Origin: a virus | Virus record (IMG/VR): IMGVR_UViG_3300044946_000118 | Location: 1 to 24,438 of that record | DNA: 24,438 bases | Strand: one strand, 5' to 3' | Part shown: positions 8,366 to 24,438 of the stretch, piece after piece | How the letters are laid out: each line of letters begins with the position of its first letter | Numbering within the stretch: position 1 is the stretch's first letter | The notes under the pieces: generated by a model | Told to the model about the DNA's origin: nothing | Databases searched by the model: none | Seen by the model: only the letters and a program-made list of their open reading frames with translations | Translations under genes and position numbers: made by a program

Positions 8366-9268
8366 TCACCCGCTCACTGGAGCCAACGTAAGGGAATTCG
8401 GCGAGATCGCGGAGCTTGCGTAGGGGTCATACGTCCCCGTCGTGTCGACCGCCGGCAAGTAGGAGGAGCTGTTGGCCGCCGAGCCGAGGCCGGTGAGCGC
8501 ATTGCCTGAGCCCAAGACCTGAGAGGTGAGGTAGCCGGACCCGATACCGTTGACCGCACCGGCCAAGGCATTCGCCGATCCCACGGTACCTGCCGCCTGT
8601 GCTTGGCCGGCGCCCATGATGGCTTGACCCTGCGCCTGCGCCGTACCCGTCGCAGCTTGCGCGAGCGACTGGCCCGCGGTAAGGCCCTGCTGCGCCAGAC
8701 CGGAATAGCGGTTGTACTGGTTGGCCGCCACGTTGTAGTTCGTGTTGAAGGCGTTCAGCGCGTTCCCGTAGCTGGACGTATACGCGTTCAATTGGTTCTG
8801 GAACTGCTGGTTGTACGTCGTGTCAGCCAAGCCCGTCACGTAGCTCGCCATCGCCTTTTGCTGGGCACCCGACACATTGAGGCCCGACGCGCTCTGCGCG
8901 TTATTGACGGCGTTCTCGCCCTGCTGGAGCTGGAACTGGTAGCCTGGGGTATTGGCGAGGTCGCTGCCATTGAAACTGAAGGCGCCCTGCGAGTTGGCGT
9001 AAGGAATGCCTGCGGAGCCCGGATTGAAACCCGTGCTTCCGTTGAGGTATCCATTCGACGCCATGTACCCTTGGGCGAGATTGAGGTTGTTCGTGCCCGC
9101 GGTCACGTACGGGCTGAGATAACCGGATGCCTGCTCGAACGATTGATGTTGCAGGTTGGCCGCACTCATGGCGGCATTCGATTCCTCATCCGCAGCGTTC
9201 GAGGCGGCATTAGCTTGCATCACGCCGCCAATAACGGCGCCTGCGGCTACAACGGCTCCGACTGGCAT
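8366..9268 (-). CDS. gp7-like DNA transfer (ejection) protein
   Basis: 300 aa. ATG at 9268 has a GAGGTG ribosome binding site and overlaps the end of the upstream gene by 22 nt. The N-terminal ~25 residues are hydrophobic Ala/Gly/Val (GAVVAAGAVIGGVMQANAAS). The middle has the pattern typical of phage DNA-transfer/gp7-like proteins: FEQASGYLSPYVTAGTNNLN, then NTPGYQFQLQQGENAVNNAQ and an ASGLNVSGAQQKAMASY block, followed by Asn/Gln/Tyr-rich helices (YNQQFQNQLNAY). Such proteins are packaged and ejected with the DNA. It heads a run of three ejection-type genes. Family recognition is from the PGYQF...GLNVSG pattern. The gp7 name is used by analogy with P22. Confidence 0.75.
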   Translation of the reverse strand: MPVGAVVAAGAVIGGVMQANAASNAADEESNAAMSAANLQHQSFEQASGYLSPYVTAGTNNLNLAQGYMASNGYLNGSTGFNPGSAGIPYANSQGAFSFNGSDLANTPGYQFQLQQGENAVNNAQSASGLNVSGAQQKAMASYVTGLADTTYNQQFQNQLNAYTSSYGNALNAFNTNYNVAANQYNRYSGLAQQGLTAGQSLAQAATGTAQAQGQAIMGAGQAQAAGTVGSANALAGAVNGIGSGYLTSQVLGSGNALTGLGSAANSSSYLPAVDTTGTYDPYASSAISPNSLTLAPVSG

Positions 9269-9987
9269 GGCGACACCTCATATCCGTGATCGGTGACCGT
9301 CACTTGGACGTTCCCGAATTTCGCAGTGTTCGGGTCGACGTACTCGATCGGGGCGTACCCGCTCGAAACGGCCCACCGGTTGTAGTACAGGATGCCCCTG
9401 TGGGGCACCTTGGCGCGGAAACATTCTGCCACAAACCCCACGGCGCGTTCATGGACGGGGTCGTACCCGTGCTCGACGGGATGAAGGCCGCTGCGCTCCA
9501 AGGCTTCATGCACATCCGCCCCTACCTCTTCGAGGTCCTGGCACTCCTGCATCCACTGCTCGGGGCGCAAGGTGAGCACGCGGATGTCTTCCTTGCCGTT
9601 CGGGCCGTTCCAGATGTCCCGGATGGTATGCGGATCGCGCATGCCTCCGGAGACGGCAAAGTCGTAAGCCCGGCGGTTGCTGAGTGGTACCCGCGTTGTC
9701 AGCAGGTTGCAACTGCGGATAAACATGAAGTGGAGCACTTCACGCGCATACTGCGCCGCGTGCCGGCTGTCCTCAAAAAGCGTGTGGATCTCCCACATGC
9801 CCGCGTCGTCCAGCTTGATGAAGAGGAAGCCACCTTCTGGCCACAAGAACCCGATGCAGTGCTCCCACACCGGGCTCAAGTCGAGATCGCACGAACCCTC
9901 TTCCAGCACGTAGGGCCGGACGCGCGGATGCTTCGACAGGGCGTGGAAGCGATCCGGGGTTCGTGCGATCTCGAACGTGTACCTCAC
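9247..9987 (-). CDS. GNAT-like (N-acetyltransferase fold) phage protein in the virion operon
   Basis: 246 aa from GTG 9987, which overlaps the upstream stop as GTGA. No strong ribosome binding site is visible, so translation probably depends on coupling. Residues ~45-125 look like a GNAT core: GFLWPEGGFLFIKLDDAGMW, EIHTLFEDSRHAAQYARE, then LLTTRVPLSNRRAYDFAVSG, matching the usual strand, CoA-loop helix and NRRA...GG segment. The acyl-CoA loop (R/Q-x-x-G-x-G/A) is degenerate, RHAAQYA, so activity is uncertain. The C-terminal ~100 residues contain ILYYNRWAVSSG and show no known domain. It sits just before the ejection genes. T7 gp13, an internal virion protein, is a known case of a GNAT-like fold in this kind of setting. 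Function here is unproven. Confidence 0.62.
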   Translation of the reverse strand: MRYTFEIARTPDRFHALSKHPRVRPYVLEEGSCDLDLSPVWEHCIGFLWPEGGFLFIKLDDAGMWEIHTLFEDSRHAAQYAREVLHFMFIRSCNLLTTRVPLSNRRAYDFAVSGGMRDPHTIRDIWNGPNGKEDIRVLTLRPEQWMQECQDLEEVGADVHEALERSGLHPVEHGYDPVHERAVGFVAECFRAKVPHRGILYYNRWAVSSGYAPIEYVDPNTAKFGNVQVTVTDHGYEVSPCQSEPL

Positions 9988-17698: not shown

Positions 17699-19842
17699 TG
17701 AGGCGCCCCTTGAGACGGGTTGGCAGGCACCGGCTGTCCGGCCGGAGGCGGGTTTGCACCATTAGGGGGAACGCCCCCGTTTGGTGCAGTTGGGGGTAAC
17801 GGTAACACCCCCTGTAGGGCTTCCGCAACCGTCGCCATGATGAGCGCTTTAGCTTCGCGCGGATCGAAGGACTCGTGGTCCAAAAGCGCGTGCATGCGGT
17901 CGGTCGTGGCGCGGTAACTTTCAACTTCGGTCTTGTCGCTCTTCTCCTTGAGCGCGTATTGTGCGGTCTGCAACATCGTTTCGAGCTGCTGGACCTGCTT
18001 CTGGAGGGTGACAACCTGCGGGTTCGGCTGACCGGTCTTGATCTCCTCAGGAATGGTACGCGCCAAACGCTCGGCAATCTCGTCCGCCAGCGGAAAATCG
18101 GCCGACTTGAACATGAGATCACCGCAGAGATTCAGCAGTTTTTCGTTCTGACCGATGATCTGCGTCATCGCAGCGAACGCTTCTTCGCGCCGGGTCTGAT
18201 AGTTCGGACCGGCCTCAGCCACTACGTCGAATTTGCCGACGTTCGGGTTGAAAATGACGCGTACCTCGTCCGGCGAGATCCGCTGCTCCTGCACGCCCTG
18301 CTGCGCCGTGGGATCGACGGTCACGTGGGACTGCTTGCCGTCCACACCGATGACGCGAAGCACGCGCTTGGTGTCGTACACGCGGGGGATCATGTTGATG
18401 AGGATGCGGCACGAGAAGCGGATGGAGGCCGCGAAGTTATCGCTGTAGTGGAAAGTGCTGATACCGCCCTGCCGGCGCCGCATCTGGATGGCCACGCCGG
18501 CCTCCTCCGGGCCTGGCGCACCGAACTGGTTCTGGTACTGACCCGACACCATGGCCATTTCGTTCGAGGCGTTCTGCAACCCTTGGATGTACCCCTGCGC
18601 CATGACCGGCGGCTGCTGGCGCTGCGGCGCGGCGATAGGCTGGCCCGCATCGTCGATGTCGTTGAACGGCATGTACGCGTAGTTTTCGAGGTTGGAGGTC
18701 TGCCAGTATTTCTCCAAGCCCTCGAACGCGCGAAGTGGTCCGATATACGGCTGTTTGCCCTGCAACGCTACGTACTCCACCGAGCTGGAGGCCCAGTAGT
18801 TGTACATGCGGTTGGGATCTTTCAGTTGGCGCGTATGCCCCTTGCGGTCCAACTTGCCGTCAATGATGGTCTCCCAACCGATGCAACGCACAATCGGGAT
18901 GTAGTCACACGGAATCTCGCTCTTTTCGAGCACGGTGGCGCCTGCGATAAGGTACCAGAGCACCTTGCACGTCTTGATGGGACGACGCTTGATGCCCTCC
19001 CGCTCCAAAAACGAGTCCATCATGTTCTCGGGAATTTCCGACTTCTTGACGTAACCGTAGTCGGTACCCATGGCGTTCGGCACGGCCCACAACTCGTCGC
19101 GCGTGTACTCTTTTTTGTAGTACTCCGCGACGCGCAGCGTGTCCTTCAAGATCCACGTGTCGCCATCGCCCACACCGGCACTGCTCGACGCGATCTCGGC
19201 CGCTTCTTTGCCGAATTTCTGCTTGAAATTGTCGAACGAGTAGTCGCTGAACACGAAGCCCCACTGGGCGTCGCTACCGTCACTCTCGTTGCAGTCGGGA
19301 TCGAGCAGCACCGAGAGACCGTCCTTGATGCGGCGAACGAAAATCTCCTGATCGAAGGTGTTCTCGTCGGCATAGTCGGTCACGATGCGCCAATAGCCGA
19401 TACCACCCTGTACCTGTTGCTCGACCGCCGTTTGGTAGGCGGCCCGCGCGTTCGACTGGTACTCGACGTGTCGGATGAGGTCCTGAAAGACCTCGGCACT
19501 CTTGTACGTGCCCTCGTCGCCCACGGGATGCACGGTCGGCGTCGGCATGTTCTGCCGGATGTCGTTGATGATGAGGAGGTTGTGCTGAAAGGTCTTGTTG
19601 ATGGTAAGGCACGGCTTGGCGTCGAAGTCGCGCGTCTTGCGTTGCGCGTCGGGCCACTGGTAGCCATTGTCGCTGTCGCCGTTGGAGAACTTCAGGTCCT
19701 CCTTGTAAAGCTTGCGCGCATCGTCCTCCCAGTCCGACGCCCGGCGAAAGCGCTTCTGCGCCTCCAACACGAGGGCGTGGTCGGGGGACGGGTTGCTACT
19801 TTCCGTCGTGCGCGGCATCACGTTCGAGTTTGAAGTGCTCAT
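17695..19842 (-). CDS. portal protein, P22 gp1-like
   Basis: 715 aa, close to P22 portal (725 aa). ATG at 19842 follows the terminase stop as TGA-C-ATG, with GGATGAG upstream. Recognisable portal blocks are FRRASDWEDDARKLYKEDLK, FSNGDSDNGYQWP, LTINKTFQHNLLIINDIRQN, HVEYQSNARAAYQTAVEQQV and GGIGYWRIVTDYAD, then SVLLDPDCNESDGSDAQWGF. A central block has PNRMYNYWASSSVEYVALQG, and the later QYQNQFGAPGPEEAGVAIQM fits the clip/stem region. The C-terminal ~60 residues are Pro/Gly/Asn-rich and disordered, preceded by a long coiled coil (VVTLQKQVQQLETMLQTAQY), which matches the barrel helix of P22-type portals. The dodecameric portal is the DNA entry channel and binds terminase, scaffold and the gp4-like plug. 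Confidence 0.93.
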   Translation of the reverse strand: MSTSNSNVMPRTTESSNPSPDHALVLEAQKRFRRASDWEDDARKLYKEDLKFSNGDSDNGYQWPDAQRKTRDFDAKPCLTINKTFQHNLLIINDIRQNMPTPTVHPVGDEGTYKSAEVFQDLIRHVEYQSNARAAYQTAVEQQVQGGIGYWRIVTDYADENTFDQEIFVRRIKDGLSVLLDPDCNESDGSDAQWGFVFSDYSFDNFKQKFGKEAAEIASSSAGVGDGDTWILKDTLRVAEYYKKEYTRDELWAVPNAMGTDYGYVKKSEIPENMMDSFLEREGIKRRPIKTCKVLWYLIAGATVLEKSEIPCDYIPIVRCIGWETIIDGKLDRKGHTRQLKDPNRMYNYWASSSVEYVALQGKQPYIGPLRAFEGLEKYWQTSNLENYAYMPFNDIDDAGQPIAAPQRQQPPVMAQGYIQGLQNASNEMAMVSGQYQNQFGAPGPEEAGVAIQMRRRQGGISTFHYSDNFAASIRFSCRILINMIPRVYDTKRVLRVIGVDGKQSHVTVDPTAQQGVQEQRISPDEVRVIFNPNVGKFDVVAEAGPNYQTRREEAFAAMTQIIGQNEKLLNLCGDLMFKSADFPLADEIAERLARTIPEEIKTGQPNPQVVTLQKQVQQLETMLQTAQYALKEKSDKTEVESYRATTDRMHALLDHESFDPREAKALIMATVAEALQGVLPLPPTAPNGGVPPNGANPPPAGQPVPANPSQGAPQ

Positions 19843-19843
19843 G

Positions 19844-21238
19844 TCAGCGGCTCATCCATCCCATGCCTGCGTTGAGAATAGCCGGGCCGGCGCGGTTGTC
19901 GCTAGGGCGCGGTGAAACGGGCTTCTTGGGCTTCTTGCCCACCATCGGAAAGATATTGCTCATCACCCACACGAGCGCATCGGCACGGTTGGGCGAGCGC
20001 TCGCCCGTGTACTGGCCGTTCGTCTGGAAGCCGGCAAGCTCGTCCTCCAACTCGCTGAAATAGCCCACGTGTACGACCTTGTTCTCCTCGTAGAGCTGCC
20101 CGATGGGCTCGGCACGCACGACCTTGCCGCGCGATGCCGAAACCTCGCGGAACGCCACACGCGCGTCCAGCTCACGGGCCGCGGTACGAAGCACCATCTC
20201 GACCATCGCACCACCGAAATTCTTCTCGTACACGATGACGCTGGCGCTGTGCCGCAAAAACGCCTGGACAGCGATGCGTCCCCACGTGGCCGGGCCGGCC
20301 TTGACCGTCAGGTCCTCCAGCACGTAGCCGCGGCCGTCGACGCCGAGGCCGCCCACGACGATACCGATGGCATCGTTCCGCGAGTTGTCCTTGTCGCCGG
20401 CACCGGAGGGGTCGACGCCTACCACGACGCGTACCATGTCGGGCAACTCGCCCTCCAAATGCCGGTTGCGGTCGATCGACTCCTCCGGAAACAATGCCTC
20501 AGGATTGGCGTCGGCAAACTCGCCGTCCCAGAAGCGCTTGCGCATGCGCGCCGACATGTTCTGCAACGTGTCGAGGTAGGACGCCTCAAGGTTCTCCTCG
20601 TTGTCGCGCGGGTTCATCTGCATGGCCGCGTAACTGTCGGGATTCTTGACCGGCCGGTTGTTCATCTCCGGGTCCGGGTCGACCTTCTTGATGAAAAGCT
20701 TGTACGTCCAGTGCGCCTTGTTGGGCGGGTTGCAATCGAAGTAGGCGCGCGCCTTGAGCACGCCCCCGATGGTCTGCTCGACACGCTGTGCCAAGCGCGT
20801 CAAGGCCATCTGGATCGACGACCACGGGATCTGCGAGCACTCGTTGAAATAGAGCGTGACGAATTCCATGCCGAGAATCTTCTCGGTGCGCTCCTTGTCG
20901 TCAAGGCCGCCGAACCAGATCTCCGACCCGCTGGCCAGCGTGGCGTACAACTCGCCCTTGTTGAGGTCGTACTCCACCTCCGGAAAGCACTTGCGCATGA
21001 CCTCGGGGAAGGTCTGGAGCATGATGGAGGCTTTCACGTGGGCCAGGCGGAAGCGGAAGATGGCGTGCCGGCTCCCCGGCGCCTTGAGCGCGCGCAACAC
21101 CACGCTGCGCACCAGCAGGAACGTCTTGCCCGAGCGCGAACCTCCGAAGAGCATGAGGAAGATGGCCACGCTGGCCAACATCTCCTGCGCGACGAGCTGC
21201 TTGGGCGTCAACGCAGCAACGGAGGGCTTGGCGGTCAC
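19844..21238 (-). CDS. terL: terminase large subunit
   Basis: 464 aa from GTG 21238, overlapping the small-subunit stop (GTGA), with GGAG upstream. The ATPase domain has Walker A GGSRSGKT (residues 32-39) and a Walker B-like FVTLYFNE ending at E133, followed by CSQIPW and a DCNPP coupling segment (from about 168). The nuclease domain starts with VVVGVDPSGAGDKDNSRNDA (catalytic Asp about D276), then FLRHSASVIVYEKNFGG, and ends with the usual SPNRADALVW (third acidic residue about D420). This is the motor that packages DNA into the prohead and cuts it. The layout is complete with no missing catalytic residue. It is followed two bases later by the portal gene. Confidence 0.95.
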   Translation of the reverse strand: MTAKPSVAALTPKQLVAQEMLASVAIFLMLFGGSRSGKTFLLVRSVVLRALKAPGSRHAIFRFRLAHVKASIMLQTFPEVMRKCFPEVEYDLNKGELYATLASGSEIWFGGLDDKERTEKILGMEFVTLYFNECSQIPWSSIQMALTRLAQRVEQTIGGVLKARAYFDCNPPNKAHWTYKLFIKKVDPDPEMNNRPVKNPDSYAAMQMNPRDNEENLEASYLDTLQNMSARMRKRFWDGEFADANPEALFPEESIDRNRHLEGELPDMVRVVVGVDPSGAGDKDNSRNDAIGIVVGGLGVDGRGYVLEDLTVKAGPATWGRIAVQAFLRHSASVIVYEKNFGGAMVEMVLRTAARELDARVAFREVSASRGKVVRAEPIGQLYEENKVVHVGYFSELEDELAGFQTNGQYTGERSPNRADALVWVMSNIFPMVGKKPKKPVSPRPSDNRAGPAILNAGMGWMSR

Positions 21239-21867
21239 AGCGCTTGCTCCGCAGGCGACAGGATGAATTGGATGGGCGCGCCACCGGCACCGGTATGCTC
21301 GACCTGGTCCTTGAACATGCCGAGGTACTTGCCGGCGTCGCGCAGCATGGCGTCGCGGTCGCGGTGCTTGACCTCGATATTGCCGTTCTTGTCCACCTTC
21401 GCGCCGTCGTAGAGCAGGCGCGCGGCCGGCGACAGGTCGCGGTAATCGGTGAGCACGACACGGGCCACGCCGTCACCGAAGCAGGAGGGACAGGTGGGAG
21501 AGGGCTTGCGGTGCGGGTCATAGCCGAAGCCGCCGTCGCACGTCTTGGGCTCCTTGCCACGGTCGATGGCCTGCGCCACCTCCAAGGCCCACTCGTCCTC
21601 GTTGGTCCAGTGGTACCGGTGGTCGAGGCCGTGACAGTAGCGGCAGGACTGGCACTCGACGCGGGAGAGCTCCGTCACGTCGGCGGTGGCCAAAGCGGAC
21701 CACGTCTGGAGAACGTGCATCGCCGTCAACGCGGCGTAGCGTTGCAGCTCAGGGTTGTTGGAGAGCGCCTCGATCACGACGGGCAGGCTCTCGTCCTTGG
21801 GCACGAGGACGCCAACCGTTGCAGGCACGTGGTTCTTGGGTTTGCCTGCGAACTTGCTGCGTGCCAC
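21235..21867 (-). CDS. terminase small subunit, Cys-rich type
   Basis: 210 aa from GTG 21867, preceded by AAGGGG; the upstream stop lies three bases before the start codon. It overlaps the large subunit (GTGA). After an N-terminal helical region (VIEALSNNPELQRYAALTAM), it contains a Cys-rich module: VECQSCRYCHGLDHRYHWT, then KTCDGGFGYD, and PTCPSCFGDG, probably binding zinc. The C-terminal part (LSPAARLLYDGAKVDKNGNI and an ALR-type helix) is typical of phage small subunits of this kind. The role would be recognition of the packaging site and handing DNA to the large subunit. The call rests on this Cys pattern and on position directly before terL; DNA binding is not shown. Confidence 0.75.
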   Translation of the reverse strand: MARSKFAGKPKNHVPATVGVLVPKDESLPVVIEALSNNPELQRYAALTAMHVLQTWSALATADVTELSRVECQSCRYCHGLDHRYHWTNEDEWALEVAQAIDRGKEPKTCDGGFGYDPHRKPSPTCPSCFGDGVARVVLTDYRDLSPAARLLYDGAKVDKNGNIEVKHRDRDAMLRDAGKYLGMFKDQVEHTGAGGAPIQFILSPAEQAL

Positions 21868-21870
21868 GCG

Positions 21871-22056
21871 TCACCCCTTGAATTTGACCCCGTACCGGTG
21901 TGCCAGCTTGCGGTCGTTCGTGTCGTCGATGCGCTGCACCTTGCGGGCCTCGCGCTCGGTGGAGCGGCCCTTGATGGGCGCGAACTCCATCTCCCGGCGC
22001 CGGACCTTGGCGTTGCCGGGGCGAGCCTCCTTGCTCGCCTCGACGGTGCGTCTCAC
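21871..22056 (-). CDS. small basic protein, unrecognised
   Basis: 61 aa from GTG 22056, which overlaps the upstream stop (GTGA) and has AAGGTG upstream. A longer reading to 22161 would be entirely inside the upstream gene and is not favoured. Sequence begins MRRTVEASKEARPGNAKVRR and includes FAPIKGRSTEREARKVQRID. It is strongly basic and has no hydrophobic segment, so nucleic-acid binding or interaction with the neighbouring terminase is conceivable but not shown. It is one of a series of tightly coupled genes leading into the terminase pair. Confidence 0.62.
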   Translation of the reverse strand: MRRTVEASKEARPGNAKVRRREMEFAPIKGRSTEREARKVQRIDDTNDRKLAHRYGVKFKG

Positions 22057-22613
22057 CGGGTCACCTTGATCTTGCGGCTGGCGTCGTGCCGGCTCAGCAT
22101 GCCGTTGCTGCGCTCGCCGATGGTGTGATGGCCCCGGCCCTTGTACTCGTCGTGCGGCCACGGCATGGACGGCGGTACCTTGACGGGGGTCGAATGCTCG
22201 CTCTCGCGATTCATCTCCCGGTCGTAGCGCGGCGAGCCCTTGCCGGTCATGCCGCGACCGGTCTCATGCTTGCCACGGCCCTCACGCTCGTGGTGCTCAC
22301 CGTGCTTGTGGTGAGTCTCACCCTTGTGCTCGGCACGCTTGCGTTCGTGGCCGTGCTCCTTGCGCTTGGCGTGCTTGCGCTCGCGGCGCTCCTCGTGCTC
22401 TTCCCGCTCATGCTTCTCGCGTCGCATCGTCTTGCCCTCGTGGTGGAAACCTTCCAACGTTTCGGCCAGGCGCGCACGACGCCCCACTTTGCCGCCCTCA
22501 TGGGCCGCTTTGGCGAGTTTGCGCTTGGGGATGGGTTTACCCTCCGGCACGTGCAGCTCCTTGTGCAAGGCACCCGGACGCTTGATGGCGCCAGCGATCC
22601 ACTTCTCAGCCAT
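22053..22613 (-). CDS. conserved-type phage protein with a KWI-GAIK N-terminal block and a long His/Lys/Glu/Arg-rich tail
   Basis: 186 aa from ATG 22613, preceded by GAGGG; an in-frame earlier codon at 22664 is less likely because it lacks a comparable site. Residues 3-52 form a compact block seen in many phage proteins: EKWIAGAIKRPGALHKELHV, PEGKPIPKRKLAKAA, then GRRARLAETL. Residues ~55-120 are almost entirely His, Glu, Lys and Arg (for example EKHEREEHEERRERKHAKRK), and the whole protein has about 22 histidines. The tail is probably disordered and might bind metal or nucleic acid. The N-terminal pattern is known from phage genomes, but I know of no established function. It is coupled to the small basic gene by GTGA. 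Confidence 0.72.
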   Translation of the reverse strand: MAEKWIAGAIKRPGALHKELHVPEGKPIPKRKLAKAAHEGGKVGRRARLAETLEGFHHEGKTMRREKHEREEHEERRERKHAKRKEHGHERKRAEHKGETHHKHGEHHEREGRGKHETGRGMTGKGSPRYDREMNRESEHSTPVKVPPSMPWPHDEYKGRGHHTIGERSNGMLSRHDASRKIKVTR

Positions 22614-22639
22614 GACACGGCCCTCACGAATGACGGATG

Positions 22640-22660
22640 GTGGAGGTAGCGTACCCCCAC
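22640..22660. other. short inverted repeat upstream of the His-rich gene
   Basis: Arms GTGGAGGTA (22640-22648) and TACCCCCAC (22652-22660) pair over nine positions with one A/C mismatch around a GCG loop. There is no T-tract on either side, so it is not a typical terminator. It lies in the 72-nt gap between the 157-aa gene and the His-rich gene and could affect mRNA stability or processing. Confidence 0.4.
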
Positions 22661-22685
22661 GCACCCGGATGGCGCAACGGCCCGG

Positions 22686-23159
22686 TCAGAGGGCCTTGAC
22701 GACGCCAGCCACATCCGAGATGGCCGCGGCGACCGCTCCGAAGCCGCCAGACTGTGTCGCGACAGCCGGCGCGGTAGAGGGCGTCGAGATAGCCACCTTG
22801 GGGGCCGGGTCTGTCGCGACGGTGGAATGCAAACCCGTGATGATGCTGGTGATGGCCGAGATGGGCGACGTCAGGTCGTTCTCCACGGTCTGGATGCCGT
22901 TGAGCACGCTGATGACCTGGTTGAGCTTGGCGTCGACCGTGGCGTTGGGGAAGGCGGCCTCGACGATCTGGACCAGCTTCACGACCTCCGGAAGCAGCGC
23001 ATTGACGGACTGGAGAAAGGCGAGGATGGCGGCAAGGTTCATGTCTTGGATCTCCGGAGGCTGGACGAAGGGTAGCGGGACGGTGACGACCACGCCCGCC
23101 GGCTTGAAGGTCGGACGGACGTAGCGCAACAACACGCCGAGCCAGTATGGAATGGCCAT
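22686..23159 (-). CDS. hydrophobic protein in the lysis region, unrecognised
   Basis: 157 aa from ATG 23159, ten bases after the preceding stop but with only a poorly placed AGG. An internal ATG at 23042 (118 aa, MNLAAILAFLQSVNALLPEV) has a much better CCGGAG at proper distance and may be the true or a second start. The N-terminal 40 residues are hydrophobic (YWLGVLLRYVRPTFKPAGVV). Residues 40-110 look like amphipathic helices with TSPISAITSIITG. The end is Ala/Pro/Thr-rich and then helical (FGAVAAAISDVAGVVKAL). It could be membrane-associated. Location between a membrane protein and the terminase region suggests lysis or packaging support, but no family is recognised. Confidence 0.6.
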   Translation of the reverse strand: MAIPYWLGVLLRYVRPTFKPAGVVVTVPLPFVQPPEIQDMNLAAILAFLQSVNALLPEVVKLVQIVEAAFPNATVDAKLNQVISVLNGIQTVENDLTSPISAITSIITGLHSTVATDPAPKVAISTPSTAPAVATQSGGFGAVAAAISDVAGVVKAL

Positions 23160-23169
23160 AACCTAACCG

Positions 23170-23445
23170 TCAAGGGGATGGGAGGGTGCGGTGGGTGTTG
23201 AGTCGCGCCTCGACCCACTCCTGCCGGATCTTGAGCGTGGTCACGTCGTCGTGCATCTGCGGGAGGTTGGCGTCCTGCACGGTGGCGCTCAACGCCCGTA
23301 CGTCGCCCCTCAGGTTGTTCACGGTGTCAAGCAGACCGCCGAGGATGTGCGCGAAGCCCAGGAGTGCGGCCAACACGAGGGCTTGCAGGACGTTGAGGAT
23401 GCGGGTGGAGAGGTTTGAGCTGCTGTCGGCTTGACGAGTCGGCAC
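23170..23445 (-). CDS. single-transmembrane protein, holin candidate
   Basis: 91 aa from GTG 23445, which follows the endolysin-gene stop as TGA-C-GTG and has GGGGGAT upstream; a longer frame to 23556 would overlap the endolysin gene. Residues 16-39 form one clear membrane helix (ILNVLQALVLAALLGFAHIL), followed by a heptad-like region (LLDTVNNLRGDVRALSATVQ) and a charged C-terminal tail (TLKIRQEWVEARLN). One N-terminal membrane span plus a soluble coiled coil, next to a putative lysis enzyme, fits a small holin; an inner-membrane spanin subunit is an alternative, although it is short for that and no embedded outer spanin was seen. Confidence 0.62.
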   Translation of the reverse strand: MPTRQADSSSNLSTRILNVLQALVLAALLGFAHILGGLLDTVNNLRGDVRALSATVQDANLPQMHDDVTTLKIRQEWVEARLNTHRTLPSP

Positions 23446-23446
23446 G

Positions 23447-24019
23447 TCATGATCCCCCGGTGAAATGCTGGAGAGCGGCTCCATAGTTGGAGGCCCAGCT
23501 TTCGGGCCGCGGCGATCCTGGTCGCCAGGTGGCATCGTAATAGTTCCATGCGCCATTGCAATCCCCCAGGTCCGGTAAAGGGTTAGGGTTATCCCAAAGC
23601 ATTAGTCGAGCTAAGCACAGTTGAAGCGTTTGAAAATTCAAGAATTTTTGGCGCATCACCACGATGATGGGGGGTAGGCTCGTCGAGGGGTACCCCCCGT
23701 GCCCAACGACCGAAGCGGCCGTCTCGACCTGGAACACTTCTGGAATTTGTGACGCGCCTCTCAGTATGCCAGAGGCCGCGACGCACTGCCGAGCCAGCTC
23801 AGCGCTCGTGGGATTGCGTAGGACGGCCGCGATGCCCGCCTCCTCCTGCCAGTAGCCCTGGCCAGGTCCGCCGGCCTCCTGCGCGATGTCACGACCTCCT
23901 GACTCCTGAAGACCGATCGCCCCCAACAGTACGCAAGCCTGCGGCGTCCATGGCGTGGTGGGGAGGATGGCGCGTGCCTGCGGAATGAGGGATGAACTGA
24001 GCGTGGTGAGGAAGTCCAT
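23447..24019 (-). CDS. putative endolysin (lysozyme-like muramidase/transglycosylase)
   Basis: 190 aa from ATG 24019; the ribosome binding site is weak. This is the first gene of the minus-strand operon. The N-terminal block CVLLGAIGLQESGGRD with E39 as the likely catalytic acid, followed by AGGPGQGYWQEE, is a lysozyme-like pattern found in podoviral proteins. The C-terminal block MLWDNPNPLPDLGD, then GAWNYYDATWRPGSPRPESW, is the other hallmark of that family. No signal peptide is visible, so release would need a holin, and the next gene encodes a membrane protein. A packaged cell-wall enzyme is an alternative, but the operon already has a transglycosylase ejection protein. Part of the C-terminal half (23570-23650) is AT-richer than its surroundings. 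Confidence 0.72.
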   Translation of the reverse strand: MDFLTTLSSSLIPQARAILPTTPWTPQACVLLGAIGLQESGGRDIAQEAGGPGQGYWQEEAGIAAVLRNPTSAELARQCVAASGILRGASQIPEVFQVETAASVVGHGGYPSTSLPPIIVVMRQKFLNFQTLQLCLARLMLWDNPNPLPDLGDCNGAWNYYDATWRPGSPRPESWASNYGAALQHFTGGS

Positions 24020-24069
24020 GCGGGCGGCCCGGGCGTGAAATTTGAGGGGACTCTACCACGGGGCCAACA

Positions 24070-24091
24070 CGCGGAGGCGGCTTTCTCCGCG
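24070..24091. other. leader hairpin 1
   Basis: Perfect 7-bp stem: CGCGGAG (24070-24076) pairs with CTCCGCG (24085-24091) around an 8-nt loop. It lies about 50 bases upstream of the endolysin start and has no T-tract on the minus-strand side. Confidence 0.5.
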
Positions 24092-24121
24092 CGCCAGAAA
24101 TCTCGGCTCCCTCTGAGGGTT

Positions 24122-24139
24122 TGGCGGCCCAAACCGCCA
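24122..24139. other. leader hairpin 2
   Basis: TGGCGG (24122-24127) pairs perfectly with CCGCCA (24134-24139) around a CCCAAA loop. No T-tract follows on either strand. Confidence 0.5.
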
Positions 24140-24150
24140 CGTTCGTAACG

Positions 24151-24166
24151 GACCGCAAAAACGGTC
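24151..24166. other. leader hairpin 3
   Basis: GACCG (24151-24155) pairs with CGGTC (24162-24166) around a CAAAAA loop. It overlaps the spacer of the TTGACA box on the minus strand, so it could be an operator-like dyad or an RNA hairpin. Confidence 0.45.
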
Positions 24167-24215
24167 AAATTGTCAAAAAGTGTGTAGGCCGACACGTGGT
24201 GACCTGAAATTTCAC

Positions 24216-24247
24216 GTTACCCGAAACCTTAAAAAAGGTCAGGTAAC
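24216..24247. other. leader hairpin 4 (two-part stem, terminator-like on the plus strand)
   Basis: Outer stem GTTACC (24216-24221) / GGTAAC (24242-24247) and inner stem ACCTT (24226-24230) / AAGGT (24235-24239) with an AAAA loop. On the plus strand TTTT follows almost directly (24248-24251), so it may end plus-strand transcription; on the minus strand it would form an mRNA-leader hairpin. Confidence 0.5.
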
Positions 24248-24284
24248 TTTTCGTGGTAAACCATTCATGAACTGTTAAGCTTCG

Positions 24285-24302
24285 ATGGCTCTGCAAAGCC
24301 AT
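24285..24302. other. leader hairpin 5
   Basis: ATGGCT (24285-24290) pairs perfectly with AGCCAT (24297-24302) around a CTGCAA loop. TTTATATTT follows on the plus-strand side, making a weak plus-strand terminator possible. Confidence 0.45.
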
Positions 24303-24438
24303 TTATATTTCACTACCCTAAATCTCTATAGTTTAAACGTGGTATATCAATACGAATACGTCACACATACCGTACACCCCCATGACCCGCACTACCCCTT
24401 ATATTTTTAACCTACCCCCCATGCTATTGGTGTTGCGT

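Follow-up and report, generated by a model that had tools for sequence, protein, structure and literature searches.

The window analysed here is a 24,438-base virus record whose right edge, position 24438, is where the contig stops. Its minus strand carries a P22-type portal and coat together with scaffold and terminase subunits, starting with endolysin and small genes and continuing through the small and large terminase to portal, scaffold and coat, and the plus strand begins at the left end of the window with a truncated family-A DNA polymerase. The polymerase (2-1693) has its nearest phage matches at about 40%, to phages of 42-44 kb that include Shewanella phage SppYZU01, Acinetobacter phage Scuro and Stenotrophomonas phage B2, and its joining to a P22-type morphogenesis operon makes this a mosaic genome. 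The first product of the operon (Table 1) shares 33% identity with the annotated endolysin of Achromobacter phage Mano, and its gene is separated from the contig end by 419 bases without a credible gene (24020-24438). Of the open frames in this stretch, the longer ones are out-of-frame overlaps with the endolysin gene and none of the others exceeds 45 aa, so that an earlier description of 24020-24310 as a gene-free leader holds up to the contig end. Hairpin A starts with ATG on both strands, giving short frames of 45 aa (minus) and 41 aa (plus), and this double ATG is probably a by-product of its inverted repeat.

Table 1. Features at the right end of the window, with positions counted from its first base.
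Feature	Position	Strand	Basis or remark
Endolysin-family protein, 190 aa, first gene of the operon	23447-24019	-	PHROG 3108, E 2.1e-22
Closing repeat, 3' arm in the minus sense	24034-24047		13/14 complementary to 24203-24216
Hairpin E, inside the closed domain	24070-24091	-	stem search and fold
Hairpin D, two exclusive registers (24122-24139 or 24118-24135)	24118-24139	-	stem search and fold
Hairpin C, inside the closed domain	24151-24166	-	stem search and fold
Closing repeat, 5' arm in the minus sense, containing the TGAAATTTCA palindrome	24203-24216		inverted-repeat search and fold
Hairpin B	24216-24247	-	coexists with the rest of the fold on the minus strand only
Hairpin A	24285-24302	-	followed by a T-rich tail when read on the plus strand (terminator-like)
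AT-rich unstructured stretch, likely promoter region as inferred	24311-24438	-	GC and fold z

All five stems that the first-pass annotation had placed in the leader are present where it located them (Table 1). In the case of hairpin D, the register 24118-24135 comprises 7 Watson-Crick pairs, and the probabilities of the two registers on the minus strand are about 0.64 and 0.35. Stems in the 291-nt stretch were counted against 500 dinucleotide shuffles and also against the contig itself, taken as 805 overlapping windows of the same length. There are 6 stems with arms of at least 5 where 2.9 are expected (a count reached in 14/500 shuffles), 3 with arms of at least 6 where 0.98 are expected (27/500) and 2 with arms of at least 7 where 0.25 are expected (12/500), and the leader's counts for the two longer arm lengths are reached by 48 and 19 of the 805 contig windows, respectively. 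The supposed dense cluster of hairpins is therefore real in its stems, but its density is just mildly above chance, as the shuffle figure for arms of at least 6 indicates.

The fold of the region as a whole is a stronger signal than the hairpin counts. The 291 nt of 24020-24310 fold with -107.3 kcal/mol as minus-strand RNA (z -3.72) and with -108.7 kcal/mol as plus-strand RNA (z -3.41), and on neither strand did any of 200 shuffles fold as well. The organising feature, overlooked in the first-pass annotation, is an inverted repeat (24034-24047 / 24203-24216) whose helix is extended by the pairing of CCACG (24056-24060) with 24195-24199 and which closes a domain of about 180 nt around hairpins C, D and E, with A and B lying outside it to the right. 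The score of this repeat is equalled in 6/300 shuffles and in 3/167 contig windows, the leader's own being among the three. Taken alone, the closed domain at 24031-24218, limits that were picked after the fold had been seen, reaches z -4.29 on the minus strand and -3.84 on the plus strand with 0/200 shuffles as good on each. A spacer of 14 nt separates the closing helix from the start codon of the endolysin gene. Parts of this repeat had been noted before: TGAAATTTCA at 24205-24214 is indeed a perfect palindrome, and CGTGAAATTT (24034-24043) does recur inverted, though at 24207-24216 and not, one base off, at 24206-24215. The leader also contains short direct repeats in two copies, CGTGGTAAACCA / CGTGGTATATCA, which lie 86 bases apart.

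As to the strand that works, the minus strand is favoured, without certainty, on account of hairpin stability, the coexistence of all five stems and the AT-rich unstructured stretch upstream. With small flanks, the minus-strand RNA gives the more stable form of 5/5 hairpins, and in three of them (A, C and D) a U-G pair there closes a loop of 4 nt; with the exact stem ends of the first-pass annotation 4/5 favour the minus strand and hairpin E is slightly better on the plus strand. In the whole fold, hairpin B forms alongside the closing helix with pair probabilities of 0.88-1.0 on the minus strand versus 0.01-0.04 on the plus strand. The closing helix itself has a probability of 0.97-1.0 on the plus strand versus 0.77-0.87 on the minus strand, where the outermost pair stands at 0.11, the mismatched position being excluded from both figures. 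The AT-rich stretch 24311-24438, which directly adjoins the leader on its upstream side in the minus sense, has a GC content of 0.43 versus 0.62 for the window and gives fold z values of +0.88 (minus) and +0.95 (plus). Against the minus strand stand the near-equal fold of the plus strand, the total energies of the two differing by at most 1.4 kcal/mol, and the fact that the one terminator-like site in this stretch is a plus-strand one.

No relative of the leader was found in the sets searched. Neither the endolysin protein nor the 157-aa protein yielded a relative among the viral contigs. Searches with other genes of the operon found viral loci for terminase (79), portal (15) and coat (best 80 of 162), and terminase gave a further 8 genome loci. 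Comparison of the leader with 189 loci, a set exclusive of L191-L199, gave no match (best blastn E 0.38; 0 nhmmer hits), and a 17-mer scan picked out a single locus, L199, which by eye shares little beyond the searched word. Phages and plasmids searched in distant mode returned just short matches with E of about 1 or more, and records near the window may be absent from the searched sets.

Folded intergenic stretches are not rare in such phages, as seen from two comparisons. In phages PAE2 and P26218, 5/24 intergenic segments reach z <= -3.4 on some strand, and the leader ranks third by fold among 20 gaps, a sample made up of every gap of at least 200 nt among 40 (19 gaps, with the leader cut to 24020-24310) and one annotated PAE2 gap. 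Within the window, a scan covering 258 combinations of strand and 190-nt stretch, in which position 24028 was deliberately included on both strands, puts the leader fourth (minus) and fifth (plus) by energy gain over 12 shuffles. The strongest fold of the window, at 9881, is a perfect 18-bp inverted repeat (9881-9898 / 9957-9974) with 58 nt between its arms, located towards the 5' end of ORF 9247-9987 on the minus strand. It may represent a genuine hairpin or an invertible segment, or may have arisen as an artefact of assembly. The nearest comparator in position is the gap 33146-33653 of Rhodoferax phage P26218, which precedes the TerL operon with the same strand arrangement and place and folds with z -4.1 (sub-stretch 33290-33492, z -3.55), but which forms other hairpins and has no convincing sequence similarity to the leader. 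A forced gapped pairwise alignment of the two is no evidence of kinship. The P26218 gap holds repeated hairpins of the CTGCTACAAC / GTTGTAGCAG type.

A scan of 24020-24438 found no sigma-70-like promoter at a score of at least 9/12, and a simple consensus scan of the same stretch found no minus-strand intrinsic terminator. The sequence CTATAG, which resembles the T7 promoter core, occurs at one palindromic site in the window (24326), and a promoter for a phage RNA polymerase was set aside, as the surrounding 21 bases have no second copy within 7 mismatches. The endolysin start shows weak Shine-Dalgarno pairing, equally weak in 6/25 tested starts with endolysin included, and an accessibility of 0.40, where the 25 starts, several of them mechanical ORF starts, span 0.15-0.59. 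Since both values are ordinary among the 25, masking of this start is not specially supported, although with 250-300 nt of upstream sequence included the start codon is mostly paired (0.05-0.13 unpaired). A mobile element with terminal inverted repeats was also considered and rejected: the two-ended pattern at a fitting distance has 0 matches in viral contigs, and a target-site duplication was not seen by eye.

The order of the operon recalls that of phage lambda, whose late operon likewise places lysis first, then terminase and head genes, and the leader is both untranslated and structured, so that the put-like or Q-type antitermination put forward in the first-pass annotation merits consideration; we nevertheless regard it as very improbable. 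Our comparisons with put and Q draw on PMC9378689 and PMC6606751. PMC9378689 describes put RNA as an early-operon element of about 70 nt that consists of two stem-loops. The HK022 put RNA, which acts through RNA polymerase to suppress pausing and terminators further downstream, has in common with the leader its adjacent stem-loops, hairpin C and a small neighbouring hairpin being one base apart in the minus-strand minimum-energy fold, but the leader has at least five hairpins and a long closing helix, arranged as a closed multi-hairpin domain plus two hairpins, and stands before a lysis gene. In Rfam, 0 families reach their gathering score over the window, and 23900-24438 gives two chance-level matches (E 3.4 and 5). 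Lambdoid late leaders (PR'-tR', lambda 6S RNA, Q antitermination) resemble this one in preceding a lysis-first late operon as untranslated sequence. They differ in the terminator on the operon's strand that Q-dependent leaders of lambda and 21 possess, in a recognisable promoter and in lacking so large a multi-hairpin fold; as for a promoter with a Q-binding element and a -10-like pause element like those of lambda and 21, no sigma-70-like site reaches 9/12 and the direct repeats present are not attributable to Q, and no Q gene is visible just upstream, since the contig ends at 24438. A terminator inside the operon had been offered as fitting antitermination, but the terminator-like sites in 18000-24438 number 3 against a shuffle mean of 5.5, terminators in the operon being at chance level, and the two on the minus strand are stems of 5-6 pairs inside the terminase gene, while the third, the leader's sole such site, lies on the plus strand (24284-24303). 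The suggestions of an origin and of a packaging signal fare no better: the patterns tried found 0 DnaA-box-like words in 23901-24438, where the direct repeats are short and two-copy, and no test points to packaging, the small terminase gene beginning about 2.1 kb off.

Three further explanations deserve weighing against a leader RNA. The stretch might be an ordinary spacer that folds without serving any particular function, a common situation in phages of this kind, and the mild excess of hairpins, the PAE2 and P26218 segments, the third rank among 20 gaps, the coding stretch at 9881 that outfolds the leader and the lack of visible conservation in the loci compared are all in keeping with this; we consider it unlikely, if to be taken seriously, given that none of the 200 shuffles folds as well on either strand and that the domain is closed, orderly and ends near a start codon. 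Alternatively, the region may act as DNA, as a possibly divergent promoter-operator in which the two inverted CGTGAAATTT[G/C]AGG copies about 170 bp apart would be bound by a regulator of phage or host origin, with the repeated CGTGGTA words as additional sites and the RNA fold as a by-product. This explanation, which we judge rather unlikely, would account for the two occurrences of GTGAAATTT in the whole window, both within the leader (at the 24034-24043 and 24207-24216 sites), for the palindromic core and for the 86-base spacing of the repeated words, and the plus-strand polymerase at the other contig end allows a divergent arrangement past 24438; yet the pairing runs beyond the palindromic core (13/14, then CCACG/CGTGG), the inner part without the closing repeat still outfolds shuffles (2/200 as good), there is no known regulator, and the neighbour to the right lies outside the contig. 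A small RNA read from the plus strand, complementary to the operon's 5' end and terminated by the hairpins at 24216-24250 and 24284-24310, would make sense of the plus-strand location of the terminator-like site, of the TTTT that follows hairpin B in the plus sense and of the surer closing helix on that strand, but we think it improbable, as no plus-strand promoter-like site was found at the left, hairpin B barely forms on the plus strand in the whole fold and the scanned stretch has no more terminator-like sites than chance would give.

A structured leader of a lysis-first operon is the most economical reading, one that is plausible but ordinary, and we tentatively prefer, at somewhat less than even confidence, to regard 24020-24438 as the control region of the minus-strand lysis, packaging and head operon, made up of an AT-rich promoter stretch and a structured 5' leader RNA. 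The earlier proposal of a structured 5' leader is consistent with the anatomy of the minus-strand operon and with the fold statistics, though the specific roles then attached to it gain no support. The hairpins, the closing repeat, a fold better than chance and the order of the genes are observed; transcription of the leader, the choice of the minus strand as the one at work and the leader's role are what we infer. The AT-rich stretch 24311-24438 would serve as the promoter stretch, and a transcript running from about 24303 to 24020 would form a leader with two 5' hairpins (A and B) followed by the domain closed by the inverted repeat and holding C, D and E. Its likeliest roles would be to shield the 5' end of the mRNA and to damp or time the translation of the first lysis gene. 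That the closed domain and the two 5' hairpins represent a new class of phage leader RNA timing a lysis-first late operon, possibly by register switching of hairpin D, seems to us quite improbable. For now this is a single structured leader with no known relatives, of use mainly for annotation and as something to probe for structure; should it prove functional, it would control when lysis and packaging set in for a P22-type phage that carries a family-A DNA polymerase of its own.
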